Source of the DNA: Arthrobacter sp. Soc17.1.1.1
GTDB lineage: Bacteria > Actinomycetota > Actinomycetes > Actinomycetales > Micrococcaceae
Direction: 5' to 3'
DNA: 64,000 nucleotides
Assembly (NCBI RefSeq): GCF_036867195.1
Contig: NZ_JBAJII010000001.1
Span: 2,356,001-2,420,000, forward strand
The translations under genes and the position numbers were made by a program. Positions 47,589 to 62,369 of this stretch are shown piece by piece. Each line of letters begins with the position of its first letter. The stretch's first letter is position 1. A model generated the notes under the pieces. The model made no database searches. It was given only the letters and a program-made list of their open reading frames with translations, and had not been told where the DNA came from.

Positions 47589-48452
47589 TCACTGGCCCAG
47601 GATCACCCGGGCAGCGTCTATGTCACGGTCCGTAACCGTGGTGGGTGCCTCGAGGTGCACGGCGCCGGACGGGATGATGCCCGCCCCGCCGTACCGCTCC
47701 ATCACGCGCCACTGGGCCGCGACGTCCTCGCCGGCGTGCCCGGGCGGCAGGCGGTCCCAGAAGTCGAAGCCCCCGCACTCCACGAGGGCCTCCCGGTCGA
47801 ACAGGACGCAGCCGCCCACCCAGGCGACGTGGTAGAGCTGCCAGCTGCCGGGCTGGATGGCGAGATCGGCGGCGGCGTGCGCCAGGTTGGCGGCGTTGTG
47901 CAGCGGCCAGCGCGCGAAGCCCTCGGTGTCCGGGCGGATCCGTTCCGGGACCACCTCGTTCCCGGGCCACAGCGCCAGTCCGGTCCGTTCGTGGGGTCTG
48001 CGGTCGCCGAGGTACGACAGCCCCTGGACGGCCGAGCCGACGAACCCGCACCGCGCCTCCCGCAGCGCCCGGCACAGGCGGTCCAGCGAGCCGGGCTCCA
48101 GCCAGACATCGTTGTCCAGGAACAGGACGAACGGCGCCCGCGCCAGCCCCAGCAGGTAGTGCCGATGCTCGGCGAGGCCACGCCGCGGCAGGTGCCGCTC
48201 GAGCTGCACCTGCCGGCCCTGGGCCTCGAGGACCCGCACCATCGCACGGACGGCGGGCTGCACCCACGACGCCGTGTCGCCGTCCGTCTGGTCGCTCACG
48301 ATGACGCGGAAGGCCACGCCCTCCTGCGCCGCGAGGCCCGCGAGCGTCACGGCGAGCTCCGCGGGACGCCCGAAGGACGGGATGAGCACGTCGACGGCGG
48401 GCTCGTCCGCCGGCGCGTCGAGCGCCCACTCGCCGGACCAGCGCGGGGTCAC
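47589..48452 (-). CDS. Family 2 glycosyltransferase
   Basis: A 287-residue GT-A enzyme. The nucleotide-sugar domain begins DVLIPSFGRPAELAVTLAGL (about residue 20), and the DxD-type metal motif is FLDNDVWLEPG (about residues 114-120). The later GWVGGCVLFDREALVECGGFD-like segment and the HAGEDVAAQWR motif fit GT2 proteins that act on nucleotide sugars at the membrane. The start is GTG 48452, overlapping the stop of the upstream kinase-adenylyltransferase gene in a GTGA junction. It is the last gene of the aldehyde dehydrogenase-HldE-GT2 unit. Confidence 0.85.
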   Translation of the reverse strand: MTPRWSGEWALDAPADEPAVDVLIPSFGRPAELAVTLAGLAAQEGVAFRVIVSDQTDGDTASWVQPAVRAMVRVLEAQGRQVQLERHLPRRGLAEHRHYLLGLARAPFVLFLDNDVWLEPGSLDRLCRALREARCGFVGSAVQGLSYLGDRRPHERTGLALWPGNEVVPERIRPDTEGFARWPLHNAANLAHAAADLAIQPGSWQLYHVAWVGGCVLFDREALVECGGFDFWDRLPPGHAGEDVAAQWRVMERYGGAGIIPSGAVHLEAPTTVTDRDIDAARVILGQ

Positions 48453-50017
48453 GGAGCGCCCTCCCCTCCGGAGGCGGACCGGATCCTGCGGACGACCGCC
48501 GCGGTGGAGCGCTCCGGCACGTAGTCGAGGATGCTGACGCGCCCGCCGCAGGCCTCCACGGCCGGTGCCTCCTCGAGCATCTGCGCGGTGTAGTCGCCGC
48601 CCTTGGCGTACACGTCGGGCCTCAGCAGCTCGATGAGCGGCACGAGGGTGTCCGTGGTGAACACGGTCACGTAGTCCACACAGCTCAGGGACGCGATGAT
48701 GCCCGCCCGGTCCGCGATCGGGTTGATGGGCCGGTCGGGGCCCTTGAGCCTGCGCACCCCGGCGTCGTCGTTGAGCGCGACCACCAGCACGTCGCCGAGC
48801 TGCTTGGCCTGGTTCAGGGAGCGGGTGTGCCCGCGGTGCAGCACGTCGAAGCACCCGTTGGTCAGGACGATGCGCTTGCCGGCGGCACGGTCCTCTTCGA
48901 CCCGCCGCAGGAGCTCCTGCGTGGTCAGCGCGGTGTCGGCGACCTGCTGCAGGTGGCCCGTGAGGTCCGCCGTCGTGCACACGGAGGTGCCCGGGCGGTG
49001 CACCACCACGTCCGCGGCGGCCTGCGCGAGGTCGAGGCTCGTGGTGAGCGGCAGGCCCGCGGCGCGCGCGGCGGTCAGGGTCGCGACGAAGGTGTCCCCC
49101 GCCCCGGAGGCCTGCCGCTCGGTCGCAGGCCGCGCCCAGGTGCGGTGTTCCTCGCCGTCCTGCCCGAGCAGCACGGTGCCGTCCCGGTCGAGGGTCACCA
49201 CGACGGCGGCGGCGTTCGTGGCCGCGAGGAGGTCGTCCCTGCGGTCGGCGACGGTCGCGGCCCGGTCGGAGCGCGGGTCGAGGCGGACGTCGAGGACCTG
49301 CGCGGCCTCCTGCGCGTTGGGCGTGACGATGTCCGGGGCGAGCTCCGACCAGGCGGCGGTGTCGTGGGCGTCGACGACGACGAGCGGTCCCGGTTCCGCA
49401 CCGAGCGCCCGGCCGAGCGCCGCGCGGACCTCGTCGCCGAGCGCCCCGGATCCGTAGTCGCACACGACGACGGCGTCGGCGCCGGCGACGGACCCCTGGA
49501 CCGTGGCGGCCAGCGCGGTGAGCGCCGACGCCGGGAGCCCGTCCTGCGTGTCGTCGAGGCGGAGCATGACCTGGTCGCCGCCGAGGATGCGGTACTTCGT
49601 GGTCGTGCCGACCCGGGGGTCCTGCAGGAGGTGGGTGGTGTCCACGCCTGCGTCCTCGAGGATGCCGCGCAGCCGCCGCCCGGCGTCGTCGGTGCCGATG
49701 AGGCCGCACATGCGCACGTGCGCGCCGAGCGCCGCGAGGTTCATCGCCGTGTTCGCCGCGCCGCCGGCGGCGTAGTCGCGCCGCGTGATGTCCACCACCG
49801 GTGCCGGCGCCTCCCGGCAGAAGCGCTCGATGGTGCCGCTCCACCAGCCGTCCAGCATGGCGTCGCCGATCACGGTGACGGCCGGCGCGCGGTCGGCGAC
49901 GGCCGCGGGGACCCAGGCGGCGAGCCCCCGGACCTCCGCGAGATCATCGGCGGCGTGGTCGGCCCGGGGCACGGTGCCTCCCGTCCGGCCGGGGTGGTCC
50001 TGCAGCGCGTCGTCCAT
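48449..50017 (-). CDS. hldE: Bifunctional heptose 7-phosphate kinase / heptose 1-phosphate adenylyltransferase (first copy)
   Basis: A 522-residue fusion. The N-terminal PfkB kinase (about residues 30-345) has VIGDAMLDGWWSG, AAGGAANTAMNLAALGA and the active-site SGAGDTF; it would phosphorylate D-glycero-D-manno-heptose 7-phosphate at C1. The C-terminal nucleotidyltransferase (about 385-515) has GCFDVLHRGHTRSL, LKGPDRPINP and YAKGGDYT, and would add AMP to give ADP-heptose. Start is ATG 50017 (TGATG junction with the aldehyde dehydrogenase stop); GTG 50020 is equally possible. A related fusion sits at 53620-54984 in the opposite operon. HldE is normally a lipopolysaccharide enzyme. Confidence 0.88.
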   Translation of the reverse strand: MDDALQDHPGRTGGTVPRADHAADDLAEVRGLAAWVPAAVADRAPAVTVIGDAMLDGWWSGTIERFCREAPAPVVDITRRDYAAGGAANTAMNLAALGAHVRMCGLIGTDDAGRRLRGILEDAGVDTTHLLQDPRVGTTTKYRILGGDQVMLRLDDTQDGLPASALTALAATVQGSVAGADAVVVCDYGSGALGDEVRAALGRALGAEPGPLVVVDAHDTAAWSELAPDIVTPNAQEAAQVLDVRLDPRSDRAATVADRRDDLLAATNAAAVVVTLDRDGTVLLGQDGEEHRTWARPATERQASGAGDTFVATLTAARAAGLPLTTSLDLAQAAADVVVHRPGTSVCTTADLTGHLQQVADTALTTQELLRRVEEDRAAGKRIVLTNGCFDVLHRGHTRSLNQAKQLGDVLVVALNDDAGVRRLKGPDRPINPIADRAGIIASLSCVDYVTVFTTDTLVPLIELLRPDVYAKGGDYTAQMLEEAPAVEACGGRVSILDYVPERSTAAVVRRIRSASGGEGAP

Positions 50018-51429
50018 CACAGGCCCTGCTGCGGAGGGGAGCTGATGTGGACCACCTTCACGAGGGCGAACTCGTCGAGCAGCTCCGGACCGTAGCCGAA
50101 GCCCGCTCCGCTGATGCCGCGGGGCTGTGCCGATCCGCCGGGCGCGCCGCCGAAGACGGCGTTGACCTTGACCGTGCCGACCGGCAGTCCGGCGATGGCC
50201 TGCTGCGCATGGGCGATGCCCCCGGTCAGCACGGAGGCCGCGAGGCCGTACGGCCCGGCGGCGGCGAGGCGCAGGCCCGCCTCGAAGCTGTCGACGACGG
50301 TCACGGGCGCGACCGGGCCGAAGGTCTCCTCGGTCATGACGGTCATGGCGTCGGTGCAGCCGGTGAGCACGGTGGCCGGGTAGTGGGCGCCCGGGCCGTC
50401 GGGCACGTGCCCGCCCTCGAGGCACTGCGCGCCGAGGCCGAGCGCCTCCGACACCTGCCCGTCCACGAGATCCCGCATGCGGCGGTCCACGAGCGGGGCG
50501 AAGTCGCCGCTCGTGTTGCGGTTCCGTGCCTCCTCGGTGAGGGCGGCGAGGAAGGGCTCGGCGATGGCCCGGTGCACGTAGATGCGTTCCACGGACGTAC
50601 AGATCTGCCCGCTGTTCGCGAAGGCGCCGAGTGCCGCCTGGCCCGCGGCCCACACCGGGTCGACGTCGGCGTCGACGATGAGGGGGTCGTTGCCGCCGTT
50701 CTCCCGGATGACGTGCGCCCCGGTGAGCGAGGCCGCCCGGGCGATGCGCTCCCCGGTGGCGCTCGAGCCGACGTGCGCGAAGACGTCCACGCCCGTCTCC
50801 ATGGTGATCATCTGGCCCACGCCCGCACCGCCGGTCAGGGTGGTGAGGACGCCGTCGGGGAAGGCCGGCTGCAGCAGGCGGCCGAGCAGCTCACCCACGT
50901 GGGGGCACCGTTCGCTGGGCTTGTGAAGGACGGCGTTGCCCGTGACGAGGGCGGCGCCGATGAGCCCGGCGGCCACGGCCACGGGATCGTTCCACGGCGT
51001 CAGGAGGGCGGCGACCCCGCGCGGCTCGGCGACGGTGTAGTCGGTGGCGGTGACGGCTCCGCGCAGGCTGAGCCCGCGATGCACGGGGCCGAGCTCCGCG
51101 TACTGCTCGAGCGTGGCGATCCCTGCCTCGACGCCGCCGAGCGCGTCGCCGAACGGCTTCCCGGTCTCCCGCGTGTTGAGTTCCGCGAGCTCGCGGGCAC
51201 CGGCGCGCAGTGCCGCGGCAGCGCTCCTGAGGGCCGCGCCGCGGTCGGCGGGGCTCGTGGCCGCCCATTCGGGCTGCACGGTCCGCGCCAGGGAGACGGC
51301 GAGCGCCACCTGGTCCCGGTTCGCGGAGGGCAGCGTGCCCACCTCGCTCCCGTCACGCGGGTCGAGGATGGTGAGGGAGCCTTCGTCCTGCACGTCGAGC
51401 AGGGGATGTGCCTCGGAGTTGATGGACAT
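50017..51429 (-). CDS. Aldehyde dehydrogenase family protein
   Basis: A 470-residue NAD(P)-dependent dehydrogenase. The nucleotide-binding region has LLTPWNDPVAV and LHKPSERCP, the general-base Glu is in RENGGNDPLIV, and the catalytic Cys in ANSGQICTSVER. ATG 51429 has AAGGAG 7 bases upstream; the longer frame to 51843 is not coding. It is first in a three-gene unit with a HldE fusion and a GT2 enzyme, all with 4-base-type junctions. Its substrate could be a sugar-derived aldehyde in the same pathway, or it could be a general detoxifying enzyme. Confidence 0.88.
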   Translation of the reverse strand: MSINSEAHPLLDVQDEGSLTILDPRDGSEVGTLPSANRDQVALAVSLARTVQPEWAATSPADRGAALRSAAAALRAGARELAELNTRETGKPFGDALGGVEAGIATLEQYAELGPVHRGLSLRGAVTATDYTVAEPRGVAALLTPWNDPVAVAAGLIGAALVTGNAVLHKPSERCPHVGELLGRLLQPAFPDGVLTTLTGGAGVGQMITMETGVDVFAHVGSSATGERIARAASLTGAHVIRENGGNDPLIVDADVDPVWAAGQAALGAFANSGQICTSVERIYVHRAIAEPFLAALTEEARNRNTSGDFAPLVDRRMRDLVDGQVSEALGLGAQCLEGGHVPDGPGAHYPATVLTGCTDAMTVMTEETFGPVAPVTVVDSFEAGLRLAAAGPYGLAASVLTGGIAHAQQAIAGLPVGTVKVNAVFGGAPGGSAQPRGISGAGFGYGPELLDEFALVKVVHISSPPQQGL

Positions 51430-51706
51430 TGCGCTCCTTGGTGTCGTGTCGTGTACCGCCGCGGCGTTCTCCCGCGGCACGCCTACTGGTCCCGTACCCG
51501 CCTCCCGTGCTTTCACACACGGCCCCCGCCGTTTTCTGCTCCACCTCCGTGCGGTCCTCAGCACGCTTAGCATATGGTGGCACGAGGAGGAGCAGCGGGT
51601 CTCCTGCTCCCGGTGGCGGCATTGACAGCGCGGATCACGCCTGCCGGTGGTGTGCCGCGGGAGCGCCCGCGCAGGGACCGCGATCAGCGACAGGAACGGG
51701 GAGCAC

Positions 51707-52864
51707 GTGACGGGGCGAGGGAACACGACGGCGGATTTCGGCGGACGGCAGGACGCGGCGAGGTCGGTGGGTCCGGTGCTGATGCCGTTCGAGGGCGTCC
51801 GGAGCATCGCCGTCCTGCGCGGCGGCGGCCTCGGCGATCTCATGTTCGCCCTGCCCGCCGTCGCGGCGTTGAAGAACCGCTACCCGGAGGCCGCGATCAC
51901 CCTCCTCGGCATGCCCGGGCACGCCGCGCTGCTCGAGGGCAGGCCCGGCCCGGTGTCGGCGGTCCTGGAGCTGCCCGTCTCCCCCGGCGTCCGTCCCGGC
52001 GACGAGGATCCGCAGGCCGTCGAGGCGTTCTTCGCCGCCGTCCACGGGACGTTCGACCTCGCCGTGCAGCTGCACGGCGGCGGCCGCAACTCCAACCCGT
52101 TCCTCCTGCGGCTCGGTGCCCGGCACACCATCGGCACGCGCACGCCCGACGCCGCGGCGCTGGAGCGGACCATCCCCTACGTGTACTACCAGCACGAGGT
52201 GTTCCGGGCCCTGGAGGTGGTCGGCCTGGCCGGTGCGGTACCGGTGGACCTCGAACCGCGGGTGGAGGTCACCGGCGCGGAGATCGCCCGGGCCGCCGAG
52301 CTCACGGGCGGGGGCGCCGTCGTCGCCCTGCATCCGGGGGCCACGGATCCGCGCAGGAGGTGGCCGTCGTCGTCGTTCGCGGAGGTCGCGGTGCGCGCCG
52401 CGGCGGACGGCTGCGAGGTGGTGGTCGTCGGGGACCCGACGGACGTCCCGGCGGCCGAGGAGATCGTGCGCCTGGCGCTCGAGGCCGATCCGACGGCGGA
52501 CGTCCGCTCGCTCGCCGGCCAGCTGAGCCTCGGCGAGCTGGCGGGAGTCCTGGCCCGCAGCGCCGTGATGGTCGGCAACGACAGCGGCCCCCGGCACCTG
52601 GCGCAGGCCGTCGGGACCCCCACCGTCGGCGTCTACTGGATCGGCAACGTGATCAACGCGGGCGCCATGGGGCGGACCCTGCATCGCGTGCACTTCTCCT
52701 GGGTGACGCAGTGCCCCGTGTGCGGGGTGGACGTCACGCAGGTGGGCTGGACGGCCGAACGCTGCGAGCACGACGACTCGTTCGTTGCGACCGTCCAGCC
52801 CGACGCCGTCTACGCGGACGTGGCCGAACTCAGGGCCACGAGCCTTCTTCTGCGTGGGCGATGA
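51707..52864 (+). CDS. Family 9 glycosyltransferase (heptosyltransferase-like)
   Basis: A 385-residue GT-B protein. The N-terminal acceptor domain has VLRGGGLGDLMFALPAVAALK, and the nucleotide-sugar domain has ALHPGATDPRRRWP and the family's NDSGPRHLAQAVGTPTVGVYW. GT9 enzymes use ADP-heptose. GTG 51707 is chosen for its GGGGAG upstream; ATG 51782 (MPFEGVRSIAVL) would drop 25 polar residues and is a reasonable alternative. It is divergent from the aldehyde dehydrogenase gene, and its last 35 bases overlap the end of the converging SDR gene. The cysteine-containing C terminus (CPVCGVD) is unusual and might bind metal. Confidence 0.85.
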   Translation: MTGRGNTTADFGGRQDAARSVGPVLMPFEGVRSIAVLRGGGLGDLMFALPAVAALKNRYPEAAITLLGMPGHAALLEGRPGPVSAVLELPVSPGVRPGDEDPQAVEAFFAAVHGTFDLAVQLHGGGRNSNPFLLRLGARHTIGTRTPDAAALERTIPYVYYQHEVFRALEVVGLAGAVPVDLEPRVEVTGAEIARAAELTGGGAVVALHPGATDPRRRWPSSSFAEVAVRAAADGCEVVVVGDPTDVPAAEEIVRLALEADPTADVRSLAGQLSLGELAGVLARSAVMVGNDSGPRHLAQAVGTPTVGVYWIGNVINAGAMGRTLHRVHFSWVTQCPVCGVDVTQVGWTAERCEHDDSFVATVQPDAVYADVAELRATSLLLRGR

Positions 52865-53555
52865 CCATCTCGCGGATCTCGCAGCTCTTGGGCTGCGAGA
52901 GCGCGAACAGGATCGCCTCGGCGACCCGCTCCGGGTCGTTCAGGCGTGAGTCGTCCTGCGGCTTGTACTGCTCGTCGCGGTCGTCGAAGAACCGGGTCTT
53001 CATGCCGCCGGGGATGATCGTGGTGACGCCGATCTGTCCCGCGGTCTCGGCGGCCAGTGCCTGCGAGAAGCCCATGACACCGAACTTCGAGGCGCAGTAG
53101 GCGGTCGCGTCGCCGACGGCCTTGATGCCGAGCGTGGACGCGATCGTGACCACGCGCCCGTGCGTCTGCTTGAGGTACGGAAGGGCCGCGCGGGCGGTCG
53201 ACGCGGTGCCCATCAGGTTCACGCCGATGACCTTCTCCCACTGGTCCGCGGGGACGGTGTCGAGCGCCCCGCAGCGGTCGATGCCGGCGGCGGTGACGAC
53301 GGCGTCGAGGCCGTCCATCGTCTCCGCGGCCTCCCGGACGGCCGCCTCGACGGCCTCGCGGTCGGCCACGTCGACCTCGAACGCCTTGACGCCGGTCACG
53401 CGGCTGATGTCGCGGTCGAGCACCACGGGGGTGCCGCCGGCGGCGAGGACGCCCTGCACGATGGCCGCGCCGAGGCCCGAGCCCCCGCCGGTCACCAGGA
53501 CGCGTCCCGGGTTGAAGCCGTTGCCTGCCGGGCTTGCTGTCGTGTTCTCGGTCAT
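52830..53555 (-). CDS. Short-chain dehydrogenase/reductase
   Basis: A 241-residue classical SDR. The nucleotide motif is TGGGSGLGA (22-30), NAG-like TAAG follows, and the catalytic triad is S140, Y153 and K157 in YCASK. It lacks the length and C-terminal substrate domain of ADP-heptose 6-epimerase (HldD, an extended SDR). ATG 53555 has AAAGGAA about 4 bases upstream. It is 64 bases after the second HldE fusion and probably in the same transcript, suggesting oxidation or reduction of a sugar or alcohol there. Its 3' end overlaps the converging GT9 gene by 35 bases. Confidence 0.85.
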   Translation of the reverse strand: MTENTTASPAGNGFNPGRVLVTGGGSGLGAAIVQGVLAAGGTPVVLDRDISRVTGVKAFEVDVADREAVEAAVREAAETMDGLDAVVTAAGIDRCGALDTVPADQWEKVIGVNLMGTASTARAALPYLKQTHGRVVTIASTLGIKAVGDATAYCASKFGVMGFSQALAAETAGQIGVTTIIPGGMKTRFFDDRDEQYKPQDDSRLNDPERVAEAILFALSQPKSCEIREMVIAHAEEGSWP

Positions 53556-53619
53556 GCTGTTCCTTTCGTAGCGTTGCTCCCGGCCGGCTGGATCGGGCCG
53601 AGGGCGTCTGTGCAGCGCG

Positions 53620-54984
53620 TCAGCCGACTCGGGCGAGCGCGGCTGCAAGTTTCGTGGTGGAGCGGGCCGGGATGTAGGGGACGGTGACCGTCCTGCCGCC
53701 CCAGCTGCTCACGAGGGCGGCCTCGGGCAGGTCCTCGGCCGCGTAGTCGCCGCCCTTGACCCAGATGTCGGGCTGGAGACGGGAGATCGCGTTCTCCGGC
53801 GTCGATTCGCCGAAGACGAGCACGGCGTCCACGCACTCGAGGGCGGAAAGCAGTTCGGCCCGGTCCTCCTGCTTGATGATGGGCCGGTTCTCGCCCTTCA
53901 GCCCCCGGACGGACTCGTCCGAGTTGAGGAGGACGATCAGGCAGTCACCGAGCTGCCGGGCGGCCGCGAGCGTGCGGGCGTGCCCCGCGTGGAGGAGGTC
54001 GAAGCATCCGCCCGTCGCGACGACCGTGCCGCCGGCCTCCCGTGTACGCCGTGCGACGTCGAGGGCGTCGATCCCGTCGACGGGCAGCTGCTGCGGCGCT
54101 TCCTGCCGACGGCCCATCGCGCTCACGCCCCCCGAGCCGAGGAACCGCGCGGCGGCCTCGGTGGCCTGCTGGGCCGCCACGTCGATGGGCTCGCCCGCGG
54201 CGAGGCCGACGGCGAGCGCGGAGGCGAACCGGTCGCCCGCGCCGCAGGGGTCCGTTGCGTCGACCCTCGGAGCGGGGACCACCTGCGGCAGGAGGCCCGC
54301 CGCGGCGACGAGCGCCCCGTGCTCCCCCATGGTGACGAGCACGGCACGGCTGCGCCACGCGCCGAGGAGGACGTCGGCGGCGGCCGCGGCGGCACGCGTG
54401 TCCGACCCCTGCAGGTCCGCGAACCGGAGGGCCTCGCCGATGTTGGGTGTCACCGCGGCGACACCGGGGACGGGCTGCGCGCCCGCCGGGTGCGGGTCCC
54501 AGACCACCGGGGTGGTCCCGGCGAGTGCTTCGAGCCGTGTCCGCAGTGCCTCGTCGGCGAGGAGCCCGCGCCCGTAGTCCGCGGCGACGATGGCGTCGGC
54601 GCCCTCGAGCGCCGCCAGCATGTCCTCCGTGCAGGCCGGGGCAGGGGGCGTCGCGCAGCCCTCGTCGAAGCGCACGACCGGCTGGCCGGACGCCCGCACG
54701 CGGGTCTTGACGGGGGTCGGGGCGCCGGAGGGGCCCGCGACCACGGTGATGCCGTCGAGTTCGGCGCGCAGCAGCGCCGCGGCGTCGTCCTCGCCGAGCA
54801 CCGTGACGAGGACCGCCTCGTGGCCGTCGGCCTCGAGCATGCGCGCCACGAGCCCCGCACCGCCGGCGCGGCGCCGTACGGCGTCGACGTCGACGACCGG
54901 CACGGGCGCGTCCGGTGACAGGCGGCCTGCATCGCCCGAGAGGTCCGTGTCGAGCAGGACGTCCCCGACCACCACGATCCTCAT
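53620..54984 (-). CDS. hldE: Bifunctional heptose kinase / adenylyltransferase (second copy)
   Basis: A 454-residue fusion with the same domain order as the first copy but about 70 residues shorter. The PfkB domain has VVVGDVLLDTDLSG, a divergent GGAGLVARMLEADG in place of the usual GGAANVAxNLA, and an active-site DPCGAGDRF. The nucleotidyltransferase half has GGCFDLLHAGHARTL, LKGENRPI and WVKGGDY. The missing Asn of GGAAN and other changes suggest altered kinase specificity, or a mainly adenylyltransferase role. ATG 54984 overlaps the gmhA stop (ATGA). It is the penultimate gene of the GmhB-GT-GmhA unit. Confidence 0.83.
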   Translation of the reverse strand: MRIVVVGDVLLDTDLSGDAGRLSPDAPVPVVDVDAVRRRAGGAGLVARMLEADGHEAVLVTVLGEDDAAALLRAELDGITVVAGPSGAPTPVKTRVRASGQPVVRFDEGCATPPAPACTEDMLAALEGADAIVAADYGRGLLADEALRTRLEALAGTTPVVWDPHPAGAQPVPGVAAVTPNIGEALRFADLQGSDTRAAAAAADVLLGAWRSRAVLVTMGEHGALVAAAGLLPQVVPAPRVDATDPCGAGDRFASALAVGLAAGEPIDVAAQQATEAAARFLGSGGVSAMGRRQEAPQQLPVDGIDALDVARRTREAGGTVVATGGCFDLLHAGHARTLAAARQLGDCLIVLLNSDESVRGLKGENRPIIKQEDRAELLSALECVDAVLVFGESTPENAISRLQPDIWVKGGDYAAEDLPEAALVSSWGGRTVTVPYIPARSTTKLAAALARVG

Positions 54985-55709
54985 CGCTGCTCCTCCTGGC
55001 GGCGGCGGCGCACCTCGGCGTCGAAGGCCCGGCAGATCGCGTGGAGGGCGATCAGGTGGCCCTCCTGCGCATTGGCGGACTGCGCGTCGATGGCCACGAA
55101 GTCGTCCACCCGCTCGGTCAGCGGGTTCGGCCCTGCAGCGGTGAGCGCCCACGTGGTGACGCCGGCCGCACGGGCGGCGTCGACCGCGTGGAGCAGGTTG
55201 GGGCTCTTGCCGCTCGTGCTCAGCAGCAGCAGGATGTCGCCCGGGCGCCCGTGCGCGGTCACCTGGCGGGCGAACATGTGGTCGAACCCGTAGTCGTTGG
55301 CGATCGCCGTGACGGCGGAGGTCTCCGCGTGGAGGGCGATCGCGGAGAACGGCTCGCGTTCGCCGTCGAACCGGCCCACGAGCTCGGCGGTGAGGTGCTG
55401 GGCCTCGGCGGCGGATCCGCCGTTGCCGGCGGCCAGGAGCCGCCGGCCCGCCATCAGCCGGTCCGCCATCTCGACGCCCCAGCCGGCGAGGGTGCCGACG
55501 TTCTGCAGGAGGGACTCGATGGCGGGCGCGACGGACCGCAGGTGGTCGGTCACGATGCGGCGGGACTCCGCGTCGGGGTGCGCAGGGCTCCCCTGCGCGC
55601 CTGCGGTGTGCGGGGTGCGGACGGGCGCCGCGGGATCCGCGGCCCTGCCGGTCGTGGCGTCGGTGCTGACGGTACTGACGGTGCTGACGTCGGTGAGATG
55701 AGTGGTCAC
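54981..55709 (-). CDS. gmhA: D-sedoheptulose-7-phosphate isomerase
   Basis: A 242-residue SIS-domain isomerase, first step from sedoheptulose 7-phosphate to heptose. The SIS signature is LLAAGNGGSAAEAQHLTAELVGRF, followed by LLLSTSGKSPNLLHAV and the C-terminal EGHLIALHAICRAFD. The first ~50 residues are an unusual extension with TVSTVSTD repeats, not part of the GmhA core (about 190 residues). GTG 55709 overlaps the stop of the upstream glycosyltransferase. It lies just ahead of the second HldE in the operon. Confidence 0.88.
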   Translation of the reverse strand: MTTHLTDVSTVSTVSTDATTGRAADPAAPVRTPHTAGAQGSPAHPDAESRRIVTDHLRSVAPAIESLLQNVGTLAGWGVEMADRLMAGRRLLAAGNGGSAAEAQHLTAELVGRFDGEREPFSAIALHAETSAVTAIANDYGFDHMFARQVTAHGRPGDILLLLSTSGKSPNLLHAVDAARAAGVTTWALTAAGPNPLTERVDDFVAIDAQSANAQEGHLIALHAICRAFDAEVRRRRQEEQR

Positions 55710-56998
55710 AGTGCCCTGCCTCCCGTGCTTTCGAGTCGACGCGCGGCGCTCCGCCGCGCTGTGGCCGGTTGTGCGGGCGCTGCCGCGCCCAGGGCCGTCT
55801 GGTATGCCTTCTCCGTGTCGGCGGCGATCCGGCTCCACGAGTAGCGGGCCTTCACGCGGCGGTAGCCGTTGGCGCCGAGCTCTCCGGCCCAGCCGGGGTC
55901 GGACACCACGTCGTCGACGGCCGCCGCGATGGCAGCCGGGTCCTGCGGCGGGACGTGGAGGCCGGTCTTGCCGTGCACCACGGTGTCGACGAGGCCGCCC
56001 ACGGCGGCGGCGATCACGGGGACGCCGCAGGCCATCGCCTCGAGCGGCACGATCCCGAACGGTTCGTACCATGGCGCGCAGACCACGGCGTCGGCGCTCC
56101 GCAGGACCGCCGGCATCTCCGCCCGCGAGACCTGGCCCCGCAGCACCACGCGGTCGCCGACGCCCAGGGCGTCCGCGAGCGCGGTGAGCCGCTGCGCCTC
56201 GGGATCCTCCTCGAGGCTCGCCGAATTGCCGGAGCCGCCCACGATGACGAGCTCGACGTCGTCGCGTCCGCGGGCCGAGAGGTCGGCCATCGCACGGATG
56301 ACGAGGTCCATGCCCTTGCGCGGCACGAGTCGTCCCACACTGACGATCCGGTGGGCGCGGCCGCGCTCCTCGACTGGACCCTGCGGGCTGAACAGCTCGA
56401 GGTCCACGCCGCACGGGGCGATCGACACGCGGCTGCCGGGCACACCCATCGCCTTCAGCTCGAAGACCTCGTCGGAGCAGGTCGCGACGATCCGGTCGGC
56501 GCTGCGGCCCACCATCGCCTCGAGCATGAGCCGCTCGGACGGGCTGGTGTCGTCCCCGCCCTGGTGGCGGCGCTTGACCGTGCCGAGCGCGTGGAACGTC
56601 TGGACCACCTGCACGGGGCGGCCGGCGCTGCGGGACTGGCGGGCGGCGTCGAGCGCAGCGATACCCGACATCCAGAAATGCCCGTGGACGATGTCCGGTG
56701 CGTCCTCACCCCAGTCCTCGACGATGCCCTCGGCCAGTTCGCTCATGTAGGGCAGCAGCATGTCCTTGGGGACGCTCCGGGCCGGGCCGGCCGTGACGTG
56801 CACGACCTCCAGCCGCGGGTGCGTCCGCACCCGGTCGGGCAGGGCGGCGTCGTCCCGGCGTGTGTACACCGTGACGTCGTGGCCGCGCCGCGCCAGCGCG
56901 AGGGACAGCTCGGCCACGTGGACGTTCTGCCCGCCTGCATCGACGCCGCCCAGCGCCGCGAGCGGGCTGGCGTGTTCCGACACCATCGAGATCCTCAC
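55706..56998 (-). CDS. Family 4 glycosyltransferase
   Basis: A 430-residue GT-B enzyme. The N-terminal half begins VRISMVSEHASPLAALGGVDAGGQNVHV, and the C-terminal half has IVSVGRLVPRKGMDLVI and the EX7E-like PWYEPFGIVPLEAMACGVPVIA. GTG 56998 follows an AAAGGAAA ribosome-binding site and overlaps the stop of the preceding glycosyltransferase. GT4 enzymes transfer hexoses, mannose or heptose from nucleotide sugars; the acceptor is unknown. The N-terminal GGQNVHVAELS motif is found in actinobacterial mannosyl- and glucosyltransferases. Confidence 0.9.
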   Translation of the reverse strand: MRISMVSEHASPLAALGGVDAGGQNVHVAELSLALARRGHDVTVYTRRDDAALPDRVRTHPRLEVVHVTAGPARSVPKDMLLPYMSELAEGIVEDWGEDAPDIVHGHFWMSGIAALDAARQSRSAGRPVQVVQTFHALGTVKRRHQGGDDTSPSERLMLEAMVGRSADRIVATCSDEVFELKAMGVPGSRVSIAPCGVDLELFSPQGPVEERGRAHRIVSVGRLVPRKGMDLVIRAMADLSARGRDDVELVIVGGSGNSASLEEDPEAQRLTALADALGVGDRVVLRGQVSRAEMPAVLRSADAVVCAPWYEPFGIVPLEAMACGVPVIAAAVGGLVDTVVHGKTGLHVPPQDPAAIAAAVDDVVSDPGWAGELGANGYRRVKARYSWSRIAADTEKAYQTALGAAAPAQPATARRSAARRLESTGGRAL

Positions 56999-57996
56999 AG
57001 CGCTTTCCTTTCTGTTGCGGCCAGGACCCGGTACCGCTGGGGCACCTGCCCCAGGACGTCGTCCCAGTCCGCGAGGAACCGGGCGAGTCCGTACCGTGCG
57101 AGTGCCGCTTCCCGTGCGACGAGTCCCCGGGTCCGTGCCTCGTCCGGGTCCTCGATGAGGCGTGCGGCCATCCGGACGAGGTCGTCGATGCTCGTCGAGA
57201 CCGCACCGGCCTCGGGTGGCACGGCGCGGGCGGCCTCCGTCGTCGCGAGCGCCAGCACGGGCAGTCCCACGTGCATCGCCTCGAGGAGGGAGAGTCCGAG
57301 GGAGGTCCACCGGAGCGGGTGCACGTAGGCCCGTGAGCGCCCGAGCCGCGCGTGCAGGCGTGCCATCGGGAGGTCGCCGCCGATCCGCAGCTCCCCCGGG
57401 CCGAGGTCCAGGGCGTCGGCGAGCCGGTCCGTCCCCATGCCGAAGACCTCGAGCGGGGCGACTCCCGCGAAGCGCGGGAGCAGGTCCGTGCCGGTGATCC
57501 GGCCGCGCCGGACCGGCTCGTTGATGATGGCCGCGAGCTGCTCGAGTTCCCCCGTGTAAAGGTAGCCGGGGTCGACGATGCCGTGCTCGATCACCGTGGT
57601 CCTCGCGACGCCGTTGTCCCAGAAGAGCTCGTTGAAGTGCGTCACGTGCACCACCGGGATGTCCGTACGTTCCGCCAGGGGGTGCACCGTGCCGACGATG
57701 TCGCGGCGGGGCGTGTTGTGCTCGAGGAAGACCGCCGGGAGGTCCCGTCCCGGAGAGCGGCCGAGGAGGCGCTCACACTCCGCGATCTCCTCGACGCGCT
57801 GCAGCACGACCACGTCGATGCCGGCGTCGGCGAGGTCGTGGGGTGCCACCTCGATGACGGATGCGGGCCAGTCGCGGCCCGCCCGGCCCAGTCCCCAGGG
57901 CCCGCCGTCGGGCGTGGTGGGCAGCACGTAGGTGTGCTCTCCCCTGACGAAGGCGTCGGTCCACCCTCCGTGGACGTGCCATAACAGGATCCTCAT
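56995..57996 (-). CDS. Glycosyltransferase (GT-B, family 4-like)
   Basis: A 333-residue GT-B-like protein. It starts MRILLWHVHGGWTDAFVRGEHTYVLP, has FLEHNTPRRDIVGTVHP and HVTHFNELFWDNG in the N-terminal domain, and in the C-terminal domain RAYVHPLRWTSLGLSLLEAMHVGLPVLALATTEA, the family-4 donor-binding block. ATG 57996 has GAGGGGAAA upstream and overlaps the previous stop; its own stop overlaps the next start. It is one of three consecutive transferases in this coupled operon. The acceptor and sugar are unknown. Confidence 0.8.
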   Translation of the reverse strand: MRILLWHVHGGWTDAFVRGEHTYVLPTTPDGGPWGLGRAGRDWPASVIEVAPHDLADAGIDVVVLQRVEEIAECERLLGRSPGRDLPAVFLEHNTPRRDIVGTVHPLAERTDIPVVHVTHFNELFWDNGVARTTVIEHGIVDPGYLYTGELEQLAAIINEPVRRGRITGTDLLPRFAGVAPLEVFGMGTDRLADALDLGPGELRIGGDLPMARLHARLGRSRAYVHPLRWTSLGLSLLEAMHVGLPVLALATTEAARAVPPEAGAVSTSIDDLVRMAARLIEDPDEARTRGLVAREAALARYGLARFLADWDDVLGQVPQRYRVLAATERKAL

Positions 57997-59096
57997 CGGT
58001 TTCCCCTCGTTGTTCTGCGGCCGTCGGTGCGGCCGATGCTGCGGCGTGAGCCGAGTGACGAAACTCCGGAGCTGAGCCGGAGCACGGCGTCGACCACGTC
58101 CTCGGGCGAGACGGTGGACAGGCAGGGGTGCCCCTGGACGGGGCAGATCCGCGCCCGGCTGAGCGCGCACGCGGCGTCCTGGTCGCCGAGCAGTTCGACG
58201 GGGACGCGGTACGGCGCCCACCGGATCGCCGGCACCACCGGCGAGAACAGGCAGACCACCGGGGTCCCCACCGCCGCGGCGAGGTGTGCCGGGCCGGTGT
58301 TCCCCGTGATCACCACCGAGGCTCCCGCGAGCACGGAGCCGAGGGCCGCGAGGTCGGTCCGGCCGCCCAGGTCGAGGGCCTCCGGCCCCGCGACGGTGGA
58401 GGTCAGGTCGGTCTCCCCCGGGCCGCCCGTGACGACGACGCGGAACCCGGCCGCGGTGAGGAGTTCGACGGCGGCGGCGTGGTGGAGCGGCGGCCAGGCG
58501 CGTGCGGGCACGGACGCACCGGGGTGGACGACGACGTACGGCCCCTTGCCCACGAGTCCGGACGCGTCGGTGAGGCCGGTGACCTGGAGCCGGCCGTCGT
58601 CGTCGGGCGGGAGGGCGTAGCCCGCGGCCTCCGCGATGCCGAGCGCGCGCTCCGCCTCGGGCTGGTCCTCGGGGAAGTCCTCGCCGGGCTTGAGCCGGAC
58701 GTCCAGGAGCGAGCCGGCGTAGTCCACGGAGGCGCCCGCGATCCGGCGGACACCCGCGAGCCGGAGCAGCAGGGCGAGAGGCAGGGGTGACTGGTGGAAC
58801 GAGGTCAGCAGGACCGCCTCGTCGACGCCGAGAGCCACCACGGCGTCGTGCAGCTCGCGCACGAGTTCCGGGGTGGGCTCCGGCGCGGGGTCGATGATCC
58901 AGGGCGCCGACCACGTGAGCACCTCGACGACGCCCGGCAGCAGGCGGGCCGCGGCGGCACCCTGCGGGCCGCACAGCATGACGACGTCGTTCGGGGAGTC
59001 GCCGTGGTCACCGGCGGCGACGGCGCGGACGGCCGGCCCGGCCAGCAGGACGTCGCCGGCGCTGTCGAGGCGGGCCACGAGGACGCGCCGCCTCAC
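57993..59096 (-). CDS. Family 9 glycosyltransferase (heptosyltransferase-like)
   Basis: A 367-residue GT9 enzyme: VARLDSAGDVLLAGPAVRAVA at the N terminus, VVHPGASVPARAWPP at the donor domain and ITGNTGPAHLAAAVGTPVVCLFSP as the signature near residue 265. The C-terminal ~20 residues (RRSIGRTDGRRTTRGNR) are basic and may be surface-exposed. Start is GTG 59096 and both ends overlap neighbours by 4 bases. It is the second gene after GmhB, so product and user of the sugar nucleotide are made together. Confidence 0.85.
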   Translation of the reverse strand: MRRRVLVARLDSAGDVLLAGPAVRAVAAGDHGDSPNDVVMLCGPQGAAAARLLPGVVEVLTWSAPWIIDPAPEPTPELVRELHDAVVALGVDEAVLLTSFHQSPLPLALLLRLAGVRRIAGASVDYAGSLLDVRLKPGEDFPEDQPEAERALGIAEAAGYALPPDDDGRLQVTGLTDASGLVGKGPYVVVHPGASVPARAWPPLHHAAAVELLTAAGFRVVVTGGPGETDLTSTVAGPEALDLGGRTDLAALGSVLAGASVVITGNTGPAHLAAAVGTPVVCLFSPVVPAIRWAPYRVPVELLGDQDAACALSRARICPVQGHPCLSTVSPEDVVDAVLRLSSGVSSLGSRRSIGRTDGRRTTRGNR

Positions 59097-59641
59097 GGGG
59101 TGCCCGCCCAGAGGGTGTCGACGGCCTCCGCGAGGTCCCGGGCGACGGCGGGGGCGTCCCGGATCTCCTCCTCGAGCGTGATGTCCGTCGGCACCAGCAC
59201 GCCGCGGGCACCGGCGGCCGCAGCGGCGCCCATGTCCGCCCCGATGTCGCCGATCACCGCGACCTCCGAGGGGTCGAGGCCCAGCCGCGCACTGGCGGAG
59301 AGCACCATGCCCGGGCCGGGCTTGCGGCACGCGCAGCCGTCGTCGGCCCCGTGCGGGCACACCTCCCACACCGCGAAGGGACCGAGCAGGTCCTCGACGC
59401 GGGCGTTGACGGCGTCGACCTGTTCCCGCGTGACGTAGCCACGGGCGATGCCCGACTGGTTGGTGACCACGCCCAGCGGGATCCCGCGGGAACGGAGGCC
59501 GTCCAGGACCTCGCGGGCGCCCGGCATCGGTTGCACGAGGGAGGGGTCGCCGTTGTACGGGACGTCCACGACGATGGTCCCGTCGCGGTCGAACAGGACC
59601 GCCTGGGGGGCTGTCCGCGGGAGTCCGGCCGAAGTATGCAT
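59093..59641 (-). CDS. gmhB: D-glycero-D-manno-heptose 1,7-bisphosphate phosphatase
   Basis: A 182-residue HAD-IIIA phosphatase. Motif I is FDRDGTIVVD (D18, D20), motif II TNQSG, motif III the Lys of CRKPGPGM, and motif IV GDIGADM. The zinc loop specific to GmhB/HisB-type enzymes is present: C95, H97, C103, C105. It removes the 7-phosphate before adenylylation. ATG 59641 has no Shine-Dalgarno sequence; it lies inside the palindrome GTATGCATAC (59634-59643), and a -10 such as TAGTAC lies about 30 bases upstream. It is the first gene of a six-gene unit in which every junction overlaps by 4 bases. Confidence 0.9.
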   Translation of the reverse strand: MHTSAGLPRTAPQAVLFDRDGTIVVDVPYNGDPSLVQPMPGAREVLDGLRSRGIPLGVVTNQSGIARGYVTREQVDAVNARVEDLLGPFAVWEVCPHGADDGCACRKPGPGMVLSASARLGLDPSEVAVIGDIGADMGAAAAAGARGVLVPTDITLEEEIRDAPAVARDLAEAVDTLWAGTP

Positions 59642-59757
59642 ACAGGCTTAGTGCCCGAGAAGGAGCAGTACTAAACACTTCATGCCGAACTTCTTCTCCT
59701 CGGCGCCTGCGAGGCCTGCCGCGGGGCGACGCCCGAACCTCTGGCAGGATGATCCGC

Positions 59758-60762
59758 ATGACTTCCGAGGGCACCACCGCCACGGGCACCCGGCCCGCCG
59801 CATCCATCCTTGTCCCCGCCTCGACGCCGGCACCCGACGGACGTCCCGAGATCCTGGCCCTCCGCGCCCTGAAGCTCGGCGACCTCCTCGTCGCGGTGCC
59901 CGCGCTCAAGGGATTGCGCCGCGCGTTCCCGGAGCACCGCATCCTCTACGCCGCGCAGGAGTGGCTCCGGCCCGTCGTCGGCCTGACCGACGCCATCGAC
60001 GACCTGCTGCCCACGCACGGGCTCGACGATCCCCTGCCCATCGAGCACGGGCGGATCGACCTCGCCGTCAACCTGCACGGCAGCGGGGGCGAGAGCCGGG
60101 GACGCCTCGAGGAGATCGGCGCCAGACGGCGGATGGGCCACCGCTCCCCCGGCTGGGACGGACCCGAGTGGCGGGACGGCATCCTCGAACGCGAACGCTG
60201 GGCCTCGCTCGTCTCCTGGCACGGCATCCCCGCGGACCCGCTCGACTGCCGCCTCCGCGTGCCCGACGGCGGGAGCCCGGCACCCGACGCCGTGGTCATC
60301 CATGTGGGGGCCGCCTACGGGAGCCGGCTCTGGCCCGTGGAGCGCTTCGCCGAGGTGGCGCGCACGCTGGCCGCGGCCGGGCACCAGGTACTGTTCACGG
60401 GCAGCGCGAAGGAGCGTCCGCGGGCGCTCGCCGTCGCCGACGCCGCCGGCCTGCCCGAGGAGTCCGTCGCGGCGGGACACCTGGCGCTGGACCGGTTCGC
60501 GGGCCTGATCTCCGGCGCGTCCCTGGTCATCTCCGCCGACACGGGCGCCGCCCATCTCGCCTCGGCCTACGCGCGGCCGTCCGTGGTGCTGTTCGGGCCG
60601 GCCCCCGCGTCCGAGTGGGGTCCGCCCCCCGGTCCGCACACCGTGCTCACGGACGAATCGCTCCGGGTCGGCGAGACGTTCTCACCCACCCCGGATCCTG
60701 CCCTGATGGCCGTGACGGTGGAGCAGGTGCTGGCGGCAGCCGCCGACCACGGCATCTCCTGA
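59758..60762 (+). CDS. Family 9 glycosyltransferase (heptosyltransferase-like)
   Basis: A 334-residue GT9 enzyme. It shows LRALKLGDLLVAVPALKGLRRAFP, VIHVGAAYGSRLWPVERFA, LFTGSAKERP and the signature ISADTGAAHLASAYARPSVVLFGPAPASEWGPP. Start is ATG 59758: CAGGAT ends 7 bases upstream, the leaderless pattern; ATG 59749, which overlaps that element, is the alternative. It is divergent from gmhB with only 116 bases between, so both promoters share one region. This is the third GT9 of the cluster. Confidence 0.87.
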   Translation: MTSEGTTATGTRPAASILVPASTPAPDGRPEILALRALKLGDLLVAVPALKGLRRAFPEHRILYAAQEWLRPVVGLTDAIDDLLPTHGLDDPLPIEHGRIDLAVNLHGSGGESRGRLEEIGARRRMGHRSPGWDGPEWRDGILERERWASLVSWHGIPADPLDCRLRVPDGGSPAPDAVVIHVGAAYGSRLWPVERFAEVARTLAAAGHQVLFTGSAKERPRALAVADAAGLPEESVAAGHLALDRFAGLISGASLVISADTGAAHLASAYARPSVVLFGPAPASEWGPPPGPHTVLTDESLRVGETFSPTPDPALMAVTVEQVLAAAADHGIS

Positions 60763-60787: not shown

Positions 60788-61579
60788 TCAGGCGATGCCG
60801 GCCCGCGCAGTGCGCCGGTCCGGTGCGGCGGGCGCTCCGAGGAGCCGCTTCTGCAGTTTGACCAGGATGCGCGCGAGGGTCCGCGAGACCTGCATCTGCG
60901 ACATCCCGAGCTCGTCGCCGATGCCCTGCTGGGTCTGCTCCATGAAGTAGCGGCGGTAGAGGAGCTCCTTCTCGCCGGCGTCGAGCTCGTTGACCGCGCC
61001 GCGCAGGGAGATCATGTCGTCGCTGCGGTCCATGCCGTTCGAATCGGTGGCGAGCGTGTCGGCCCAGCTACGACCCTCGAAAGGTGCGTCGAGCGAGTCC
61101 GGCCGCAGGCTCGAGGAGGAGGCCTGCGCCTCGAGGATCTTGCTCTCCGGCCAGCCGAGCTCCAGTCCCAGCTCGCGGGCGGTCGCGTCGCGTCCGAGGC
61201 GCTGCGCCATGGCGGGAGCGGCGCGGGCGATCTCGGTGCGGAGGTCCTGGATGTCGCGGGGAGGTCGGACCACCCAGCAGGAGTCCCTGAGGTAGCGCTT
61301 GATCTCGCCGGTGATCGTCGGCACGGCGAAGGACGCGAACGGCACGCCCCGTCCGGGGTTGAAGCGCTGCACCGCCTTGATGAGCCCGAGGTACGCCACC
61401 TGGCGGATGTCCGAGGCCTCCGGCCCCGAGAACGCGAAGGAGCGCGCCACCGATTCGGCGATGTCCATGTGCCGCAGGGCGATGTCGTCCTGCAGGGCCG
61501 CCTTGAGCGGGCGCCCGGGGTACGCAGGGCCCGGCTCGTCGCCGTCGGTCGCGGACTGCGGGGCGGCGGTGATGGACAT
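60788..61579 (-). CDS. SigB/SigF-family RNA polymerase sigma factor
   Basis: A 263-residue sigma-70 family protein with regions 2, 3 and 4: ESVARSFAFSGPEASDIRQVAYLGLIKAVQRF, FASFAVPTITGEIKRYLRD (region 2), RLGRDATARELGLELGWPESKIL (region 3) and QQGIGDELGMSQMQVSRTLARIL (region 4). This layout is that of SigB/SigF stress factors of Gram-positives. ATG 61579 has GGAGAA 4 bases upstream. No anti-sigma or anti-anti-sigma gene lies in the window. The GC of its upstream region is low, typical of a control sequence. Confidence 0.88.
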   Translation of the reverse strand: MSITAAPQSATDGDEPGPAYPGRPLKAALQDDIALRHMDIAESVARSFAFSGPEASDIRQVAYLGLIKAVQRFNPGRGVPFASFAVPTITGEIKRYLRDSCWVVRPPRDIQDLRTEIARAAPAMAQRLGRDATARELGLELGWPESKILEAQASSSSLRPDSLDAPFEGRSWADTLATDSNGMDRSDDMISLRGAVNELDAGEKELLYRRYFMEQTQQGIGDELGMSQMQVSRTLARILVKLQKRLLGAPAAPDRRTARAGIA

Positions 61580-61800: not shown

Positions 61801-62310
61801 TCAGGTCAGCAGGGTCGCTGCCGGGCCCCCGGCACCCGGACCCTCGAGTGCCACGCCCTCCTGCGCGCCGGCACCTCCCGCCGTCCAGTTCCAGCGGGGT
61901 GCGCCGAGTTCCCGGATGACGCGCTGCAGGTGGTTGCGCAACTCCTCCGACACGAGCCCGCCGCCGGCCACGAGGGTGCGTTCGATGTCCGCCGCCGCGT
62001 CGAGGACCTGGCGCCCCTCCGCGGAGATGGACACGGTGTGCGAGCGCCGGTCGAGGTCGTTCCGCACGCGCGTCACGTGCCCGCGTGCCTCGAGGCGTGA
62101 GAGGGTCTTGCCCATCGTCTGCGCCTGCACCCTGACGATCTGGGCGAGACCCGCCTGGGTCATGGCTCCCTGGTCCGCGAGGACCCCGAGGGCGATGACG
62201 CCTGCGTGGGTCACGCCGATACCGACCAGCCGCTCGTTCCAGGCATGCTCGACGAGACGCGCCGCCGTGGTCAGCAGGCGGCCCGTGGGCCATTGCTCCA
62301 GATCGGGCAT
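61801..62310 (-). CDS. MarR-family transcriptional regulator
   Basis: A 169-residue winged-helix regulator. The DNA-binding segment is MTQAGLAQIVRVQAQTMGKTLSRLEARGHVTRVRN, then DRRSHTVSISAEGRQVL (the wing). ATG 62310 has GAGGAAG about 11 bases upstream; a start at 62349 is in frame. The divergent gene encodes a thiol peroxidase, suggesting redox or antibiotic stress as signal. No conserved Cys near the N terminus is seen, so oxidation sensing as in OhrR is not supported. Confidence 0.85.
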   Translation of the reverse strand: MPDLEQWPTGRLLTTAARLVEHAWNERLVGIGVTHAGVIALGVLADQGAMTQAGLAQIVRVQAQTMGKTLSRLEARGHVTRVRNDLDRRSHTVSISAEGRQVLDAAADIERTLVAGGGLVSEELRNHLQRVIRELGAPRWNWTAGGAGAQEGVALEGPGAGGPAATLLT

Positions 62311-62369
62311 AGACCGTGCACTTCCTCTCGCTCGCAGATCCGGTGCCATCTCCGGCGCCGGATCTCACC

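Follow-up and report, generated by a model that had tools for sequence, protein, structure and literature searches.

In the window analysed here, a 64,000-nucleotide stretch of Arthrobacter sp. Soc17.1.1.1 DNA, a first-pass annotation had placed, at 47589-60762, genes for GmhA, GmhB, two HldE fusions, three GT9, two GT4 and one GT2 glycosyltransferases, a short-chain dehydrogenase/reductase (SDR) and an aldehyde dehydrogenase (ALDH), and had attributed to them the synthesis of a heptose-containing envelope glycan or secreted glycoconjugate. Heptose is a seven-carbon sugar whose most familiar setting is Gram-negative lipopolysaccharide. Genes in the window were called and then scanned with Pfam and NCBIfam profiles, and the 4.23-Mb host genome was also searched. 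The presence of all 12 enzymes was confirmed by the gene calls and profiles (Table 1).

The cluster and its cwg counterpart

The leftward operon has the order gmhB - GT9b - GT4b - GT4a - gmhA - hldE1 - sdr, with intergenic gaps of 14, -4, 8, -4, -4 and 64 nt; sdr was assigned to it because of its position and the 64-nt gap. GT9c is divergent from this operon. The second block consists of rightward GT9a, whose 3' end is convergent with sdr, and leftward ALDH - hldE2 - GT2. A longer ALDH call reaching 51807 was rejected as an over-extension. The start of GmhA is uncertain, as the parts aligned to DiaA and to phosphoheptose isomerases of solved structure start at residues 54-84.

Table 1. Features of the cluster region, in window coordinates
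Feature	Position	Strand	Evidence and remarks
GT2 glycosyltransferase	47589-48452	-	PF00535 E 1.9e-10; 4-nt overlap with hldE2
HldE2, PfkB kinase + cytidylyltransferase-like domain fusion	48449-49972	-	HldE model 358 bits; solved relatives 4e84, 5x9q
ALDH, 470 aa, second block	50017-51429	-	PF00171 E 1.2e-101; AAGGAG ahead of start
GT9a, heptosyltransferase-type, second block	51767-52864	+	PF01075 E 1.7e-26; 1psw (heptosyltransferase II) E 4.3e-14
SDR oxidoreductase, between hldE1 and convergent GT9a	52830-53555	-	PF00106 E 5.9e-40
HldE1, PfkB kinase + nucleotidyltransferase fusion, cwgI clade	53620-54984	-	HldE model 283 bits
GmhA, sedoheptulose-7-phosphate isomerase, cwgH orthologue	54981-55709	-	SIS_2 E 1.3e-21; NF010546 160 bits
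GT4a, MshA-like GT4, cwgG orthologue	55706-56986	-	PF00534 E 4e-43; TIGR03449 MshA 241 bits (cut-off 462.5)
GT4b, divergent GT4-type, cwgF orthologue	56995-57996	-	PF00534 E 7.1e-9
GT9b, heptosyltransferase-type, cwgE orthologue	57993-59078	-	PF01075 E 1.1e-21
GmhB, D,D-heptose-1,7-bisphosphate 7-phosphatase (HAD-IIIA), cwgD orthologue	59093-59641	-	NF006506 116 bits, E 1.4e-33
SigB/SigF-type promoter-like site GTTTAG-N14-GGGCAC before gmhB	59651-59676	-	9 nt upstream of ATG
GT9c, heptosyltransferase-type, divergent from gmhB, cwgJ orthologue	59758-60762	+	PF01075 E 2.4e-22
SigB/SigF/SigG-family sigma factor gene, convergent with GT9c	60788-61579	-	sigma-70 regions 2, 3, 4

The cwg operon of Streptomyces coelicolor (SCO6179-6190) is assigned to a putative cell wall glycan (Hong 2002, as cited in passages of PMC5839063 and PMC6767563). 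The labels given in PMC5839063 include transferase among the cwg genes, 'dehydratase' for cwgD, 'putative phosphoheptose isomerase' for cwgH and 'bifunctional synthase/transferase' for cwgI, and Table 1 of PMC6767563 gives the 12-gene operon a sigma-E promoter 147 bp from the start codon. L169, L171 and L172 were the first loci examined for the published 29-base promoter, and none of them had it at up to three mismatches. A scan of 392 genomes from a genus presumed to be Streptomyces found this promoter in four, once exactly and three times with one mismatch. In the locus with the exact match (L193), a GTG start lies 147 bp downstream of the promoter, followed by 12 co-directional genes. Because of the exact promoter, the 147-bp distance, the 12 genes and the fitting labels, this operon was taken to be the published cwg operon.

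The L193 proteins were compared with the window by tblastn. Identity was 50% over 236 aligned positions between cwgD and GmhB, 62% between cwgE and GT9b, 57% between cwgF and GT4b, 54% between cwgG and GT4a, 66% over 158 aa between cwgH and GmhA, 49% between cwgI and HldE1, and 46% between cwgJ and GT9c. The cwgA, B, C and L proteins had no match in the window, and cwgK had a weak one of 31% inside GT2. According to a domain scan of L172, a Streptomyces-type locus with the same order, A is an epimerase, B is a carbamoyltransferase, and C, K and L are three GT2 enzymes. Judged by these matches, seven window genes (gmhB, GT9b, GT4b, GT4a, gmhA, hldE1 and GT9c) are orthologues of cwgD-cwgJ. The window order matches cwgD-I, and the cwgJ counterpart, GT9c, is displaced to the divergent position. 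The window thus carries the core of cwg and lacks the ends seen in the Streptomyces-type operon.

The spread of the cluster was also studied. Within the class, TIGR02199 at E<=1e-30 was matched in 70 of 296 genomes. A GT4b profile at E<=1e-20 had matches in 22 of the 149 genomes sampled from the phylum, and 14 of these 22 lie outside the class; the host genome is included in both counts. At least 560 loci related by GT4b were found in genome contigs, and among the matches listed, the nearest named relatives were Arthrobacter sp. SX1312 (91%) and A. echini (88% and 84%). In 70 of 80 named loci, which were the best 80 of at least 560 and lean toward near relatives, gmhB, GT9b, GT4b, GT4a, gmhA, hldE1 and sdr occurred in this order on one strand. 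Since the order is conserved in relatives, the grouping of these genes is not due to chance. The first-pass annotation had suggested a search of related genomes for the same gene order, and the order was thus found. The envelope glycan that it had proposed remains plausible, but the locus is not an oddity of one chromosome: its core is cwgD-J and recurs across the class and phylum. The earlier interpretation was therefore partly right, with the window carrying a variant of an operon that was already known.

By best tblastn label, 100 loci contained GT4b in 95 cases, GT4a in 95, GT9b in 94, HldE1 in 91, GmhB in 90, GmhA in 89, SDR in 87, GT9c in 74, HldE2 in 65, GT9a in 56, ALDH in 50 and GT2 in 24; these counts include a few weak matches (25-32% for some of the SDR labels), some genes are masked by fusions, and many loci end at the 10-kb flank. 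No SDR match was found between hldE1 and GT9c in L169, L171, L172 and L193. Natural fusions were observed: GT4a-GmhA and GmhB-GT9b in the Clavibacter locus L141, and GmhA-HldE1 in L185 and L186. They suggest that the precursor enzymes are tied to each other and to the transferases. An earlier view of Clavibacter loci as lacking gmhA did not hold for L141, where gmhA is fused to GT4a.

Other arrangements were encountered among these loci. L173 and L174, in genomes of 5-6 Mb from another family, carry a second cwg-type variant with a cwgA-like epimerase, a cwgB-like carbamoyltransferase and a SigF-like match nearby, to which L173 adds a UDP-glucose dehydrogenase-like gene. L186 (genome G196, Streptomyces-like) has a GmhA-HldE tridomain gene, with the other cluster genes not found in its 19 kb; it possibly belongs to a heptose antibiotic cluster.

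Heptose enzymes and the two HldE clades

Heptose enzymes were the best profile relatives of GmhA, GmhB, HldE1 and HldE2. The top solved relative of GmhA was the phosphoheptose isomerase 5i01, and the best solved relatives of both HldE proteins were the D-beta-D-heptose 7-phosphate kinase 4e84 and the 'putative cytidylyltransferase' 5x9q, which we take to be an HldC. The GmhB translation shows DRDGT and C-x-H...C-x-C residues, presumably the motifs of this phosphatase. In hmmscan, the scores given in Table 1 were below the NCBIfam equivalog cut-offs, which are 521 bits for HldE, 276 for GmhA and 178 for GmhB, and these proteins were therefore regarded as divergent family members. With TIGR02199 (cut-off 181.5), the two nucleotidyltransferase domains scored 178.8 and 178.9 bits in hmmscan and 181.8 and 181.5 bits in whole-genome scans.

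The genome scan yielded two HldE nucleotidyltransferase domains and three GT9 genes, all located in the cluster, and one SIS_2 protein above the cut-off. The absence of a recognisable HldD, already pointed out in the annotation, was borne out: the HldD model had eight matches in the whole genome, none of them above the cut-off of 274.6 bits, the best at 88. A hidden HldD among the genome's epimerases was considered and rejected, the top two of these weak matches being GalE and a LegB- or dehydratase-like protein and the other six not being named. A complete pathway to nucleoside diphosphate (NDP)-D-glycero-D-manno-heptose is supported by the family assignments, and because no 6-epimerase was found, this D,D form would be the expected donor.

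To compare the HldE proteins, a tree of 37 rows (20 HldE1, 16 HldE2 and E. coli HldE) was built, and motifs were counted in 106 HldE1 and 72 HldE2 rows after truncated proteins and those with lengths outside 0.75-1.4 of the query had been dropped. HldE1 formed one clade that included cwgI (support 100/100), and HldE2 formed another (93/85); E. coli HldE, to which each window protein is about 36% identical, lay on a long branch, and its placement and the root are unsure. Because the two clades each span several families, an origin of HldE1 and HldE2 by recent duplication was rejected. The two enzymes, listed together in the annotation, are not redundant copies but, according to the tree, two old clades whose kinase motifs differ.

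The HxGH motif was kept in 105 of 106 HldE1 and 72 of 72 HldE2 rows, window proteins included, and the Asp of GAGD in 106 of 106 and 71 of 72, respectively. The Asn of GGxxN contacts the sugar in PfkB kinases. In HldE1, it is replaced by Leu (GGxxL) in 20 of 20 tree rows and 104 of 106 alignment rows, and DPHP is present in 20 of 20 tree rows. In HldE2, the Asn was found in 15 of 16 tree rows (one row gapped) and 70 of 72 alignment rows, together with DAHD in 13 of 16 tree rows. The corresponding motifs of E. coli HldE are GGAANVA and DPKG. The HldE1 and HldE2 kinases may thus differ in substrate or anomer. The kinase of the GmhA-HldE1 fusion likewise reads GGAGL, and the existence of this fusion argues that HldE1 is still part of the heptose route.

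An enzyme with Arg at position 5 of the motif (F/L)xxGxSTT can also employ CTP and UTP, according to the account of Tang et al. 2024 in the commentary PMC11461863. The window sites are YIPARSTT in HldE1 and YVPERSTA in HldE2, both with this Arg, which was present in 100 of 106 HldE1 and 32 of 72 HldE2 rows. Since both enzymes carry it, the fusion of kinase and nucleotidyltransferase does not by itself fix the nucleotide. ADP is the likely nucleotide but is predicted not to be exclusive, with CDP or UDP possible. The ADP-heptose of the earlier proposal therefore stands with respect to a pathway leading, by family, to NDP-D,D-heptose and not with respect to ADP as the settled nucleotide.

The heptosyltransferase type of the three GT9 enzymes, also part of that proposal, was upheld by PF01075, and GT9a matches the ADP-heptose-using heptosyltransferase II of lipopolysaccharide (LPS) synthesis. 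In the alignment of GT9a with the latter (1psw), RRRWP corresponds to AKRWP and NDSGPRH to NDSGLMH. The C-terminus of GT9a, CPVCG...RCEHDDSFV, is metal-binding in look; GT9b has a different Cys stretch, CPVQGHPC, and GT9c has none. Among the 12 proteins, the largest 19-residue hydropathy was 2.01, compared with 2.95 for a neighbouring CDF transporter used as a control, and all 12 look cytosolic by this measure. A role for SDR and ALDH in modifying the heptose or an acceptor is possible.

The gmhB promoter and the adjacent sigma factor gene

The site upstream of gmhB has a GTTT -35 box and a GGGnA -10 box at SigB spacing. Promoters listed for the SigB family in PMC8346170 include rrnEp2, GTTTAC-N14-GGGCAC, and the M. 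smegmatis SigF sites described in PMC4694148 are GTTT-N16-GGGAA and similar. From the position of the site, the gmhB mRNA is predicted to be leaderless. The pattern GTTTAN{14,16}GGGNAC had one match in the 4.23-Mb genome, located before gmhB; a reversed-pattern control had three. The sigma gene next to GT9c was the best of five genome matches to TIGR02980 (197 bits), and a match to it was present in 53 of the 80 named loci. Genes for a MarR regulator and a PrxQ-type peroxiredoxin (61801-62961) stay beside it in the nearest Arthrobacter loci (L089-L091 and L093).

Loci were classed as sigma-adjacent when a SigF-like gene lay within 4 kb, and the strict motif was sought within 400 nt upstream of gmhB; loci without a GmhB match above 45% identity or with less than 300 nt upstream were dropped. 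The strict motif was found in 49 of 56 sigma-adjacent loci versus 10 of 43 others, which include three (L054, L055 and L057) whose stretch ends before the sigma-gene position (Fisher 8e-11; background 0.0002 per upstream region). Within Microbacteriaceae, the figures were 6 of 9 versus 0 of 13 (p 0.0011), with 2 of 24 loci dropped (L126 and L164) and the assignment of genera to the family mostly presumed. Both p-values overstate independence, as the loci are related and some are of the same genus. The spacer varies across loci, and both boxes stay.

A relaxed motif was present within 50 nt of gmhB in 65 of 100 loci (53 of 56 sigma-adjacent and 12 of 44 others). Upstream of other genes, it was found in 0 of 83 cases for GT9c, 0 of 62 for GT9a, 3 of 57 for ALDH, 0 of 96 for SDR, 0 of 104 for HldE1, 1 of 73 for HldE2 and 0 of 50 for SigF, and reversed sequence gave 0 of 100. 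In the genus, where 35 genomes were checked for HldE, 30 carry the cluster; 28 of the 30 had the motif no more than 8 kb from an HldE gene, and in 22 of these 28 it was the sole match. With three more genomes added, the 38 contained 44 matches, 16 of them away from the cluster; the reversed-pattern control gave 37. The exact motif thus marks one operon with no sign of a larger regulon, and targets with other boxes are possible.

These observations add a new element to the system: the gmhB promoter is of the SigB/SigF type by sequence, and loci that have it tend also to have a SigB-family sigma gene next to the cluster. By this association, the adjacent sigma factor would most likely drive the promoter. 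In Micromonospora-type loci (L153, L154, L161, L162 and L178), GTTTAC-N13-GGGAAC precedes gmhB, and no SigF-like gene was detected within 4 kb.

Proposed function and comparison with known systems

The reading that we favour, with a probability of about 0.6, is that the locus is a cwg-type operon variant that provides NDP-D,D-heptose and heptosyltransferases for a stress-controlled, envelope-linked glycan or glycolipid. The HldE kinase domains would add the 1-phosphate, GmhB would take off the 7-phosphate, and the HldE nucleotidyltransferase domains would form NDP-D,D-heptose (ADP likely, CDP or UDP possible), which would be used in the D,D form without HldD. Cytosolic GT9 (heptosyl-), GT4 and GT2 transferases would then assemble a heptose-containing oligosaccharide on a lipid or other carrier, and unlinked machinery would export it to the cell envelope. 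The gmhB-to-sdr operon would be transcribed from the SigB/SigF-type promoter, most likely by means of the adjacent sigma factor. Because of this promoter type, and by analogy with the control of cwg by sigma-E in Streptomyces, the glycan may be stress-inducible. According to passages in PMC6767563, cwg is induced by vancomycin, in part via the envelope-stress factor sigma-E, and for this reason an envelope glycan or glycolipid was favoured; activation of cwgA by salt without a rise in sigE is mentioned in PMC13011467. A literature search returned no report of heptose in actinobacterial walls; subscription literature was largely outside its reach, and absence is not proven.

Several findings weigh against this reading. 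Among the products of the 12 genes there is no flippase, polymerase, ligase or enzyme for anchoring, and hydropathy showed no clear membrane segment in any of them. The 28 neighbour families that recur most were also inspected by eye for a linked flippase, polymerase or ligase, and none was recognised. As no export gene is linked, the case for export and for a place in the envelope depends on the cwg label, which is itself 'putative'. Because cwgA, B, C and L had no match and cwgK a weak one, the product would not be identical to that of Streptomyces. The sub-cut-off scores and the missing Asn of GGxxN in HldE1 mean that the exact substrate could differ.

The regulatory part is subject to similar objections. 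The sigma protein is below its family cut-off (197 versus 234 bits, TIGR02980), and its link to the promoter is an association in related genomes that was found and tested on overlapping data. The strict motif was missing in 7 of 56 sigma-adjacent loci, most of which carry a variant in the same place (by eye, post hoc). The relaxed motif failed in 3 of 56, namely L121 and L135, where it overlaps the called start, and L145 (GCGTAC). In 10 loci by the strict form and 12 by the relaxed one, the promoter was present and no sigma gene was detected beside the cluster, and the motif was missing near HldE in 2 of the 30 cluster genomes (G009 and G018).

Membrane proteins recur in the flanks, for example MFS-like in 9 loci and YihY-like in 8 (L095, L097, L106, L116, L153, L161, L162 and L179, from two distant groups, Arthrobacter and Micromonospora); these names were given by eye and are our assumption.

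That the 12 genes include none for a membrane protein or a transporter, and that no flippase-, polymerase- or ligase-like family was recognised by eye among recurrent neighbours, would also agree with a cytosol-made soluble or membrane small molecule and no wall polymer, such as a heptosylated inositol, a phosphatidylinositol-type glycolipid or a stress metabolite. GT4a resembles the inositol-phosphate glycosyltransferase MshA, at 241 bits and below the cut-off, and the promoter is of the stress type. However, six glycosyltransferases suggest an oligosaccharide, and the orthologous cwg operon belongs to a vancomycin-induced, partly sigma-E-dependent envelope-stress response, as far as PMC6767563 describes it. 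We consider a small molecule possible, and clearly less probable than the envelope product.

It is improbable that the HldE-like enzymes use another sugar or alcohol phosphate for a non-heptose glycan. The scores below the equivalog cut-offs would fit such a role, as would the GGxxL and DPHP of HldE1, the DAHD found mostly in HldE2 versus DPKG in E. coli, and the fact that the nucleotidyltransferase domains weakly resemble glycerol-3-phosphate cytidylyltransferase (32-36 bits). In contrast, heptose models or structures were the best or among the best matches for GmhA, GmhB and both HldE, the partners are GT9 enzymes, and the GmhA-HldE1 fusion resembles the tridomain isomerase/kinase/nucleotidyltransferase enzymes outlined in PMC11573728. 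A septacidin- or hygromycin B-like secondary metabolite pathway, prompted by reported actinobacterial uses of such enzymes (PMC10948575 and PMC11461863), is very improbable, since no antibiotic-type core enzyme was seen among the scanned genes at 42347-62961 (no cluster-finding program was run) and the core is syntenic across many families, unlike patchy antibiotic clusters.

The envelope reading can be extended to a broader proposal, which as a single joint claim is speculative and rather unlikely. Cwg-type loci would represent a heptose-glycan system found throughout the actinobacteria, which in cells that have no outer membrane would correspond in function to the LPS inner core. The system would be governed, in Micrococcaceae and several Microbacteriaceae, by a dedicated SigB-family sigma factor that targets essentially a single promoter. 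HldE1/CwgI would form a separate class with altered kinase specificity, beside HldE2, the two supplying two differently activated or configured heptoses.

Now that cwg is linked to a full heptose pathway shared by many genomes of actinobacteria, its product becomes testable as a D,D-heptose. The locus lies in a soil bacterium that is tractable, and it includes a sigma factor predicted to serve one promoter and a pair of HldE enzymes with differing kinase sites. Since NDP-heptoses are immune agonists via ALPK1, as noted in the commentary PMC11461863, Gram-positive sources of NDP-heptoses also matter for the immunity field.

Compared with the cwg operon of S. coelicolor, the window has in common the order of cwgD, E, F, G, H and I, a cwgJ counterpart and a stress-type promoter. 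It lacks orthologues of cwgA (epimerase), cwgB (carbamoyltransferase) and cwgC, K and L (GT2), as judged by the search of the window, has GT9c in a divergent position, and adds SDR, GT9a, ALDH, HldE2 and another GT2. The cwg promoter is of the sigma-E type, whereas the operon head in the window has a SigB-type site (a sigma-E site was not looked for there). With the Gram-negative pathway to ADP-L,D-heptose for LPS (GmhA, HldE, GmhB, HldD and WaaC/WaaF), the isomerase, the fused kinase/nucleotidyltransferase, the phosphatase and the GT9 enzymes are common; that pathway has HldD, whereas the window host has none above the cut-off, two HldE clades and three divergent GT9 enzymes. The GDP-heptose route shares the GmhA step, and also GmhB, but employs a separate kinase, HddA, and guanylyltransferase, HddC, in contrast to the fused HldE-type enzymes of the window. 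NDP-heptose synthetases in actinobacteria were reportedly the subject of a 2022 study by Tang. In the tridomain NDP-heptose synthetases, whose domain order is given in PMC11573728, the isomerase, kinase and nucleotidyltransferase are joined; in the window, gmhA and hldE1 are separate but adjacent, with a 4-nt overlap.

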